In this document: one piece after another, positions 23,732-26,488 of the stretch
Numbering within the stretch: the first letter of the stretch is position 1
How the letters are laid out: the number at the start of each line of letters is the position of its first letter
DNA from: Verrucomicrobium sp.
GTDB taxonomy: Bacteria; Verrucomicrobiota; Verrucomicrobiia; Methylacidiphilales; UBA1321
Assembly (NCBI GenBank): GCA_017849585.1
Contig: JAFIGT010000040.1
Coordinates: 1-42,199, forward strand
Length of the DNA: 42,199 nucleotides
Reading direction: 5' to 3'
Program-made: the position numbers and the translations under genes
Notes under the pieces: generated by a model
What the model saw: only the letters and a program-made list of their open reading frames with translations
Databases searched by the model: none
What the model was told of the DNA's origin: nothing

Positions 23732-24574
23732 CTAGTTGAGATAACTTGCGGCCAACGCCCAGAGGTCGCGGTTGATCTGAAGTTGTGAATCCAATCCGGT
23801 GATTTTGCGCACACGCGCTATGCGGCGATCTTCCTGCAAGGCTTTGAGTCGGTCGGGACGTGAACCACGTATCATGCGCTCTTGAACGACATTGAACGTT
23901 TGCCATAGCGAATTGCCGTGATCCGCAGCGCGAAGGGGTTCCAGCAACTTGACAGGATAGACAGGCGACTCCTCAACGCTGTCGTAACGCAATGCCAAGG
24001 CACGGGAGGCAAAGTTAAGCTTTTCCTCGTCGCTCAATGTCCGCTGCCGGAATGATTCAATATGACTGCCGATCTGGTCGGAATTTCCCGCGATTTTCTG
24101 CGACACGGTAATCACTTCGTCAATCGTGCGGTGAGTATGCCGGACAGAAACCGCGCTGAAGGTGGCATCGGACACGACAAGGCCATTGGTGCACACCTGA
24201 CGAAATACCCCCGCATAGAGACGGAACGCGCAACCGCCGTCATGTGAGTTCATCATTACTAACTCAATGCGGCTGTCGCCGAGTGGCGTTGTATTCAATT
24301 CACTGCGCCGATGAAAGCGCACCAAGTGTTTTTGAAATCCTTTGCGGCCTTCTTCGCGTGCGGTCTGTTCTTGCACGGAAACGGGAGCCCATCCCGATTC
24401 CCGCAACGCATCAATAACGGTAGCGGTGGGAAAGAAGCTGTAACGCTCGGTGGTGGCTTCGTGCGCTTTCGCTGCGAAAGCGGAGGGAACACGCGCCGTC
24501 AATTCCTCGCGGGAAAGCTCGGCAGCGGCGGAACGCATCATGTAACGATTCGGGATTACGAGTGTTTGAGTCAT
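23732..24574 (-). CDS. DUF932 phage/plasmid-related protein
   Basis: A 280-aa protein of the DUF932 type, common on plasmids, phages and integrative elements. Visible features are the N-terminal RYSFFPTATVIDALRESGW, the HLVRFHRRS strand, then RLYAGVFRQVCTNGLVVSD, which is a recurrent core of this family. Biochemical function is unknown. First gene of a six-gene minus-strand unit. Immediately upstream are a hairpin (ACGTCT/AGACGT, 24593-24609) and an operator-like palindrome, so its expression is probably controlled. Confidence 0.85.
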   Translation of the reverse strand: MTQTLVIPNRYMMRSAAAELSREELTARVPSAFAAKAHEATTERYSFFPTATVIDALRESGWAPVSVQEQTAREEGRKGFQKHLVRFHRRSELNTTPLGDSRIELVMMNSHDGGCAFRLYAGVFRQVCTNGLVVSDATFSAVSVRHTHRTIDEVITVSQKIAGNSDQIGSHIESFRQRTLSDEEKLNFASRALALRYDSVEESPVYPVKLLEPLRAADHGNSLWQTFNVVQERMIRGSRPDRLKALQEDRRIARVRKITGLDSQLQINRDLWALAASYLN

Positions 24575-24639
24575 ATTTTAACTAGCCTTTTTACGTCTGG
24601 CTTAGACGTTTAAGTTTATTGTTCTGTGTGACTTACGAT

Positions 24640-24654
24640 GTGTATACTATACAC
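24640..24654. promoter_or_regulatory. Palindromic operator-like site upstream of the DUF932 unit
   Basis: GTGTATA and TATACAC pair exactly around a single C. A related half-copy (GTGTATTGTATAG, 24664-24676) follows at about two helical turns. Such paired sites suggest binding of a dimeric repressor, for example the element's XRE protein. It lies 66 bp upstream of the DUF932 start codon. Confidence 0.5.
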
Positions 24655-24721
24655 AAAACATGCGTGTATTGTATAGAGATAAATCTATATAAATCTTTGC
24701 TTTTCAGAGGGAAAACAGAGA

Positions 24722-25043
24722 AGTTGGCACGCGAAAAAACAGGCCAAAAAACGCTGCCAGCCGACCGGAGGCCAGCGCGACCTTTCTCTCTCTTTTCCTT
24801 CCCTCTCACCAACTCGGCGGCGACAGCGAGCGCCTCCCCGATTTCCCTAGGAGGCGCGAGCCGAGCCGCGACTAATTATTCGGGGCAAGCCGGAGGCTGT
24901 GACAGGTGGTGTTTCCTGGCACAACTCCGGCGCGGGGAGGCCGGAAGGAGGGCGTTGCGGGAGGAAACCAGCAGGGTTTCCTCCCGCTGGAAAGGGGAGC
25001 GGCGTAGCGAAGCTAGCCGCGCGGGGAAAGTCCCGTTTCCCCG
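24722..25043. ncRNA. GC-rich hairpin array: structured RNA or origin-like DNA
   Basis: In about 320 bp flanked by AT-rich DNA nearly every block can pair. AGTTGG (24722-24727) pairs with CCAACT (24809-24814). CTCGGC/GCCGAG (24813-24818, 24860-24865) encloses GCGCCTCC/GGAGGCGC. GCCGGAG/CTCCGGC (24889-24895, 24925-24931) encloses GTGACAGG/CCTGGCAC with one mismatch. A 13-bp perfect stem spans 24957-24987. Two more stems are at 24999-25020 and 25022-25043. The first two stems overlap by two bases and may be alternative. No convincing protein is encoded. It could be a non-coding RNA, a long leader of the DUF932 unit, or an oriT/oriV. Confidence 0.5.
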
Positions 25044-25603
25044 AGAAGAAAGGAAGCGAACAGAAAAAGTCGTTCATTCAAAGACACGAAAAATTTCTCA
25101 TAGGAATATGACGAGTCAAAGCAAAGTAGAGAGATCGACGTATGAAGAGTACGCCAAGCATCCTGTTACAGAGAAAGAATAATACACCAAGAGAGACGAA
25201 GAAATTGTAAGACAATCACGAGATAGCGCCGAGGCACTAGACGGCAGACATCTTCACCATAAGGAAAGAGATATGTAAAAAAATTAGATAGAATCGAATG
25301 CCCCAGAATTGGATTTAGAATACCGCTTTGCAAATAGGGCATTCAGGTCAGATGCTTGCAAGACGGATTATTCAGACTACGACGAGATCAAACACTCAAG
25401 AAATTAGCATGAGGGTAACGAATGGGAAATACGTGTCCGTTGATTGTCTTGCTGGGGCGTTTCCTTGCCTCTTTCGATTGTTTCGTTCTTTGGGAGCATT
25501 CGGGCTCCTGTCCGCATGGGTAAAAATGCCTCATTAATCAGTGAAAATAGTCCGTTAGTAGTCTCAGGAGGCTTGTAATTCGGGAGGGTTTTAGGGTGGG
25601 CAT
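25044..25603. other. Gene-free stretch before the FkbM methyltransferase gene
   Basis: About 560 bp. One 24-codon frame (25108-25182, ATG after AGGAAT) continues in the same frame past its TAA for 32 more hydrophilic codons to 25278; it may be a decayed small gene. A 42-codon hydrophobic frame (25409-25537) lacks a ribosome binding site. I see no supported gene, strong repeat or terminator. Confidence 0.4.
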
Positions 25604-26488
25604 ATGATTAATCCCAAAGAGTTGCTGTACGATATTATCCACAAGACGATTGGGGACGTTACGCCTATTGCCAAGGCTGAAGTCCTGAAAGCGGCAAATG
25701 CCTTGCCCTGCAAGCATGGAGATTGGGGGAGCAAGGCGTTCATGGTGTTTTGCGACACCTATGCCCGACGCTATCATAACATCAACTATGACCCAGCGGT
25801 AAACGGTGAGTACTGGGCGATGCAGCAAATAGCCTCCCTAGCCCCCAAAGTGGTTTTTGATGTGGGCGCTAATGAGGGAAACTGGTCGTTTATTGCATCC
25901 AAGCTCTTTCGTGAAGCGGCCGTACATGCCTTTGAAATTGTTCCCACTACCTTTGAGATATTTACTGCCCTAACCAAGGGACGTGATCGGGTTATTGGCA
26001 ACAATGTCGGCCTGTCGAATGAGGAAAAGATCATCGAGGTCAACGTATACGAGGCTTCAACCGGCTATTCTTCTCTCTACGCATATCCCCAGCATGGTAG
26101 TGGATCGAAAGTTCCCTGCCGCGTCATGCGAGCCGACTCTTACATTGCTCAAAACGGAATTGAGCACATTGACTTTCTGAAAATTGATACCGAGGGTGCG
26201 GAGCCGTTGGTGCTGGAAGGATTTGGGAAATACCTTTCGGACGAGTTTATCGATATCATTCAATTTGAATACGGGACTATGAATTCCCGGACGCAATTCT
26301 TCCTGCAAGATTACTATGAGCTGTTTGAAAAGAAGAACTTCAAGCTGGGGAAGCTCTATCCTGAAGGAGTCGAGTTCGTGGATTACGACATGGAAGATAC
26401 CGCCATGTTTGACGCCTATTTCGGCCCTAACTACATCGCGGTTTCCAATAAGCGCCAGGAAATTATCGAGATGCTGAAGGAAAAATAA
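25604..26488 (+). CDS. FkbM family SAM-dependent methyltransferase
   Basis: A 294-aa protein. The SAM-binding motif I is VVFDVGANEGNWSFIA (about 83-98); the family's second hallmark, HIDFLKIDTEGAEPLVLEG (about 187-205), is intact. Members methylate hydroxyl groups of sugars and natural products. A GGAGGG sequence lies 16 bp before the ATG. It is the first gene of the plus-strand cargo segment, followed after 82 bp by the FRG-domain gene. Target unknown; modification of a surface glycan or other small molecule is possible. Confidence 0.9.
   Translation: MINPKELLYDIIHKTIGDVTPIAKAEVLKAANALPCKHGDWGSKAFMVFCDTYARRYHNINYDPAVNGEYWAMQQIASLAPKVVFDVGANEGNWSFIASKLFREAAVHAFEIVPTTFEIFTALTKGRDRVIGNNVGLSNEEKIIEVNVYEASTGYSSLYAYPQHGSGSKVPCRVMRADSYIAQNGIEHIDFLKIDTEGAEPLVLEGFGKYLSDEFIDIIQFEYGTMNSRTQFFLQDYYELFEKKNFKLGKLYPEGVEFVDYDMEDTAMFDAYFGPNYIAVSNKRQEIIEMLKEK

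Follow-up and report, generated by a model that had tools for sequence, protein, structure and literature searches.

A two-stem structured nucleic-acid element absent from Rfam and carried mostly by MobF integrative conjugative elements of one Verrucomicrobial family

The window studied here comprises 42,199 nucleotides of a Verrucomicrobium sp. contig (JAFIGT010000040.1, assembly GCA_017849585.1). As the preliminary description had reported, positions 24722-25043 are dense in stem-loops and form a GC-rich island between AT-richer flanks, with a GC content of 0.62 (24700-24999) compared to 0.463 and 0.433. The 13-bp perfect stem mentioned there pairs 24957-24969 with 24975-24987, and 8-bp hairpins could be identified at 24830-24837/24850-24857 and 25022-25029/25036-25043. 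The AT-rich gap at 24575-24720 contains a promoter-like site for the neighboring DUF932 gene, the consensus of which is at chance level. A near-palindromic AT-rich box, TGTGTATACTATACACA plus GTGTATTGTATAGAG, was observed at 24638-24680 between the element and DUF932 and resembles an operator or promoter for this gene. An FkbM-type methyltransferase recurs as nearby cargo in three elements of the same genome (window 25604-26488, L019 460-1344 and L296 5081-5965). A search of the contig for a repeat of the tRNA-Gly 3' end, which would mark the far attachment site, gave no match.

Table 1. Features of the hairpin-rich element and its DUF932 neighbor, in positions of the window.
Feature	Position	Strand	Basis or occurrence
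DUF932 gene, neighbor of the element	23732..24574	-	Pfam
5' segment AGCCGACCGGAGGCCAGCGCG (GACC..GGA)	24758..24780	+	Alignments
Conserved polypyrimidine tract, CTCACC at its end	24781..24813	+	Alignment A1/A4
Stem A: three stacked helices (GCGGC, GC, GCGCCTCC), C-rich apical loop	24817..24869	+	Covariation
Linker GACTAATTATTCGGGGCAA	24870..24888	+	Alignment
Stem B: outer helix, GUGA/GC(G/A)C internal motif, inner helix of variable length	24889..24931	+	Covariation
13-bp perfect hairpin	24957..24987	+	Stem-loop search
Hairpin GCGGC.TAGC-GAA-GCTA.GCCGC	24999..25020	+	Also in C4:104k and G008:C79:41k
Terminal hairpin CGGGGAAA/TTTCCCCG	25022..25043	+	Also in C4:104k and G008:C79:41k

The sole long open reading frame across the island runs from 24619 to 25182 on the + strand. 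Copies of the island in the same genome differ by indels of 1-2 nt, which do not preserve the frame, and by substitutions without codon periodicity. Therefore, this reading frame is not a gene and a protein-coding reading of the island was rejected, in line with the earlier remark that no convincing gene is present. Minimum free energies of the island gave z-scores of -3.3 for the + strand and -4.4 for the - strand, and none of 100 shuffled sequences folded equally well on either strand. The hairpin-rich stretch is a real, previously undescribed folded element of RNA or single-stranded DNA.

In the same assembly, a whole-genome search identified three copies of diverged sequence (C4:104k, C4:179k and C23:196k). 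With a covariance model built from ten copies, 14 strong copies were found in this genome and in genomes of the family, ten of them in the latter. No copies were present among 384 genomes of the class outside the order, the phylum-wide search gave weak partial matches only, and plasmids, phages and viral contigs contained no real near relatives. When contigs were scanned with an exact pattern, 107 stretches were obtained; among the 80 taken as loci, L117 (G004:C156) was the sole true member by model score. The preliminary description had proposed a comparison with Rfam models, and the element matches no Rfam family: at the gathering threshold of Rfam 15 the only match in the window was a tRNA, the best sub-threshold match at E ≤ 10 was RAGATH-10 (17.8 vs 41.2 bits), and nine related loci likewise gave no match. 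A search with a model of stem B (27 sequences) recovered further copies within the family, of which 14 represent a second subfamily, B. The element is thus a nucleic-acid family of two subfamilies that is absent from Rfam.

Both subfamilies share the same architecture, in which a stem A with a C-rich loop is followed by a linker and by a stem B with a CGUGAC/GGCGCG internal motif. Subfamily B has a stem A of CCGCGTTTTGAA-CCCCGGCCCC..GGGGCCGGGG-ATCGAAACGCGG with a pyrimidine loop, a linker with a CAGCAAAAAGCAG end and then stem B, and carries the similar GACCAACGGAAGCC at the position equivalent to the 5' segment. Stem B, the internal motif of which contains a U.G (or U-A) pair and an A.G mismatch, is the most widely conserved portion of the element. 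Besides the stems, the unpaired sequences of the loop, the linker and the 5' GACC..GGA are conserved. The three 3' hairpins (24957-25043) are retained in just two other copies, C4:104k and G008:C79:41k, where the 13-bp hairpin contains G-U pairs and one mismatch. A pseudoknot between CGGGG of the linker and CCCCG of the stem-A loop is possible, as judged from pairing potential, in most copies of subfamily A; it is not claimed, because both G008:C79 copies lack the GGGG.

Covariation among homologues, which the preliminary description had named as the way to check the fold, was strong and supported one secondary structure. Within the core (24791-24937) of ten copies, 98% of the cells were paired, compared to 31-44% when the partners were slid, and 13 of 30 pairs had changed on both sides. 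The three helices of stem A each reached 98.8-100% paired cells, with compensation of GCGCCTCC/GGAGGCGC to GCACCCCC/GGGGGTGC. For stem B, 27 diverse sequences yielded 80 double-change cells and 91% paired cells (at most 45% when slid), and GCCGGA/TCCGGC was replaced by GCAAA/TTTGC or GCCAGT/ACTGGC. In the 14 copies of subfamily A, which are related by descent, 22 G-U cells were counted and only 4 A-C cells. The U.G pair of the motif itself accounts for half of these G-U cells, and the excess persists once this pair is removed; in subfamily B, G-U cells were again far above A-C cells. As a two-strand cruciform would not give such a bias, the + strand is the folding strand, a test that fits RNA and single-stranded DNA of this strand alike. 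Since the sequences are related, no p-value is assigned to the asymmetry. The two-stem core is under selection for structure on the + strand.

Most copies are located on elements encoding a TrwC-type MobF relaxase, TrbI/TrbL-type secretion genes and a tyrosine integrase, which shows that the carriers are mostly MobF integrative conjugative elements of one Verrucomicrobial family. Where the limits of an element can be drawn, it holds about one copy. The genome of the window encodes seven relaxases vs five stem-B copies, and four of its relaxase contigs are without a copy. Copy and relaxase gene share a contig in 15 cases, and in every one of them the copy lies on the relaxase-coding strand; these elements are related by descent, so that they do not amount to 15 independent cases. 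A three-gene operon (HTH, ParA-like and a third gene) precedes the copy in L023, L026, L056, L298 and L301. Beyond it, and divergent from it, the relaxase gene is found in L023, L026, L056 and L301, while L298 ends before the relaxase. Copies without this adjoining operon lie about 6-66 kb from the relaxase. In L051 (4209-5317; G004:C156), a truncated relaxase fragment was observed 10 nt from the element end, as if joined by a deletion.

In several relatives, the DNA immediately upstream of the relaxase gene carries a hairpin and then a nic-like motif (CCTAAGC..GCTTAGG-GGTGGCGTGTCC; CTAAGCGGGGCTTAGACCTATTGCGTCTGTC), the variants of which after the hairpin are GGTGGCGTGTCC or CCTATTGCGTCTGTC. 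This site is 2.5 kb to tens of kb away from the element. Among L066-L091 (e.g., L068, L067 and L073), a putative MobF oriT, assigned by sequence resemblance, consists of CTAAGC..GCTTAG and then GGTGGCGTGTCC or ACCTATTGCGTCTGTC; the relaxase starts about 100-200 nt further on.

The genes next to the copies vary and include DUF932-ParB (three copies), ImuB/DnaE2, an integrase, the relaxase operon, a TOTE system and an Eco57I-type enzyme. The position upstream of a DUF932-ParB module given in the preliminary description is correct at this locus, but in general applies to only 3 of the 14 strong copies. Because sister copies adjoin Gabija, integrase, DnaE2, relaxase-operon or cas9 genes, the link to DUF932-ParB is considered incidental. 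L020 (5611-8981; C4:179k; G000:C4 179-183k) encodes a Gabija-like AAA/OLD TOPRIM protein and a UvrD helicase at the position of DUF932-ParB in sister elements. On G004:C85 (L294 2150-7430), 60 nt separate a subfamily B copy from a compact cas9 downstream, and cas1, cas2 and an array are present as well. A complement of the CRISPR repeat adjoins this array and most copies have no cas9, and therefore the element was rejected as the tracrRNA of this cas9.

The proposal of a candidate new structured RNA stands at the level of structure, given the covariation, the strand preference, the non-coding character and the missing Rfam match. The favored reading, to which we give an even chance, is that the element is a noncoding RNA gene of the integrative conjugative element, of roughly 180-320 nt and on the + strand. 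The excess of paired cells, the double changes, the strand asymmetry, the conserved unpaired sequence and the recurrence of the same layout in a second subfamily are consistent with it, although the structure, polarity and element association fit RNA and single-stranded transfer DNA alike. The element would then be transcribed as a free-standing RNA. A protein might bind at stem B, as the GUGA/GCGC motif is preserved between helices that covary, and the pyrimidine-rich stem-A loop (UUUCCCU, UCUUCCUUCU) may pair with purine-rich mRNA starts, which would make the RNA a regulator of host genes or of genes on its own element. Against an RNA gene, the scan of the + strand at the element found no promoter above chance and no terminator after it, the apical loops are unlike the usual stable RNA tetraloops, and some MobF elements of this genome lack a copy, as counted above. 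Moreover, transferred single-stranded DNA would likewise be expected to keep one orientation with respect to the relaxase.

The main rival is accordingly a site on the transferred strand, which we regard as possible but rather unlikely. The element would be a priming or single-strand initiation site, or an Frpo-like single-stranded DNA promoter, that folds upon arrival of the strand in the recipient and there attracts primase or RNA polymerase. The constant position on the relaxase-coding strand suggests this, since that strand would be the transferred one, judged by the order of hairpin and nic-like motif and thus by a presumed nic orientation. In addition, DUF932, ParB and Gabija genes just beyond the element are on the opposite strand, so that the transferred strand would be their template, as for genes of leading regions (PMC11541004). 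However, no -35/-10-like pair is found within stems A and B, and promoter-like sites occur at about chance. With the presumed nic orientation, entry of the copies next to the stb-like operon would come last rather than first; adjacent genes run the opposite way in G008:C79:41k, and the common descent of the 15 cases weakens the polarity argument.

Stem B also occurs more widely in the phylum. The exact inner stem-B hairpin was found 13 times in 10 of 388 genomes, compared to two occurrences of the reversed control, and these wider hairpins lie within GC-rich islands, sometimes in tandem. In four genomes the hairpin precedes a RAYT gene by about 150-650 bp and has the opposite orientation (G216, G074 and G433, loci L235, L236 and L226, and G082, locus G082:C1:2527165). 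RAYT and IS110-like names were read from translations, RAYT also from PF01797. L227 (1210-1330; G585:C19) has a pair of stem-B hairpins with a spacing of 83 nt; the region is dense in hairpins, and an IS110-like transposase gene adjoins the pair. An improbable reading that would include this proximity of stem B to RAYT genes is a conserved device of Verrucomicrobial conjugative elements, made of RNA or strand-specific single-stranded DNA; the protein that binds its GUGA/GCGC stem would be a relative of HUH enzymes (relaxase, RAYT) or one used in common with them.

It is decidedly improbable that a RAYT (TnpA_REP) transposase spread the element as a REP/BIME-like hairpin, which then stayed in the conjugative elements. 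The hairpins of REPs contain a bulge and are strand-specific (PMC8266576), and an imperfect palindrome on one strand is indeed present here (A.G mismatch, U.G pair, G-U over A-C); together with the four RAYT-linked genomes this points toward REPs. Nevertheless, stem B reaches 5 copies in the genome of the window, at most 10 among relatives and 1-6 in distant genomes, hence 1-10 per genome vs hundreds. A GTAG-type tetranucleotide is absent from the feet, the motifs tried being found in 1 of 14 5' feet per subfamily; own and family genomes have 0-3 Y1 transposase genes, none near any copy, and stems A and B are retained together. As two defining features fail, copy number and tetranucleotide, REP identity was rejected.

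A transfer origin had also been suggested, and mostly one copy per element in noncoding, hairpin-rich DNA near tra or integrase genes would agree with it. This was not borne out. In a MobF oriT the hairpin is 5' of nic (PMC9868005), and this order at the relaxase locus is not found at the element; instead, the MobF-type hairpin and nic-like motif of several relatives are directly upstream of the relaxase gene. This separate site makes it very improbable that the element is the nicked origin of its conjugative element, and the four relaxase contigs without a copy argue in the same direction. By its sequence context, the element is probably not the transfer origin of its islands. Least probable of all is that the element acts in cis as a regulatory leader for the gene beside it, which at this locus is DUF932. 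The strand that folds runs antisense to DUF932, and almost every copy has a different gene downstream, even though the element adjoins DUF932 in three copies and precedes cas9 on G004:C85.

The element is new to Rfam, has a clear structure, keeps its polarity on conjugative elements and contains a core motif that recurs across Verrucomicrobiota; it marks spots where defense and other cargo are exchanged on conjugative elements. It offers a concrete target for distinguishing structured RNA from folded transferred DNA during conjugative transfer. If an HUH-related protein reads the GUGA/GCGC stem, one hairpin motif would link conjugation, RAYT transposition and cargo exchange.

Among known systems, stbABC of R388 (PMC3098194) is resembled by the three-gene operon before the copies, for which Pfam gives no membership. 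With the MobF oriT of R388, F and pKM101, the element shares hairpin DNA on a MobF element, whereas its islands have the hairpin-plus-nic site directly before the relaxase gene, away from the element. The likeness to REP/RAYT systems consists of a strand-specific imperfect hairpin with internal mismatches and of RAYT genes nearby in some distant genomes; low copy number, no GTAG tetranucleotide, a two-stem unit and no RAYT gene near the conjugative-element copies set it apart. Like Frpo/ssi sites of conjugative plasmids, it is a folded strand of fixed polarity beside leading-region-type genes, but it has no promoter elements in the stems, is GC-rich, varies in position between conjugative elements and has a deeply conserved two-stem architecture. 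The STAXI motif, for which its authors left RNA or single-stranded DNA open (Weinberg 2010; PMC2864571), and similar candidate RNAs of mobile elements are also structured, covarying and near DNA-transfer, integrase or antirestriction genes. STAXI consists of tandem pseudoknots with UUCG loops, whereas the element described here has two stems, a C-rich loop and the GUGA/GCGC motif.
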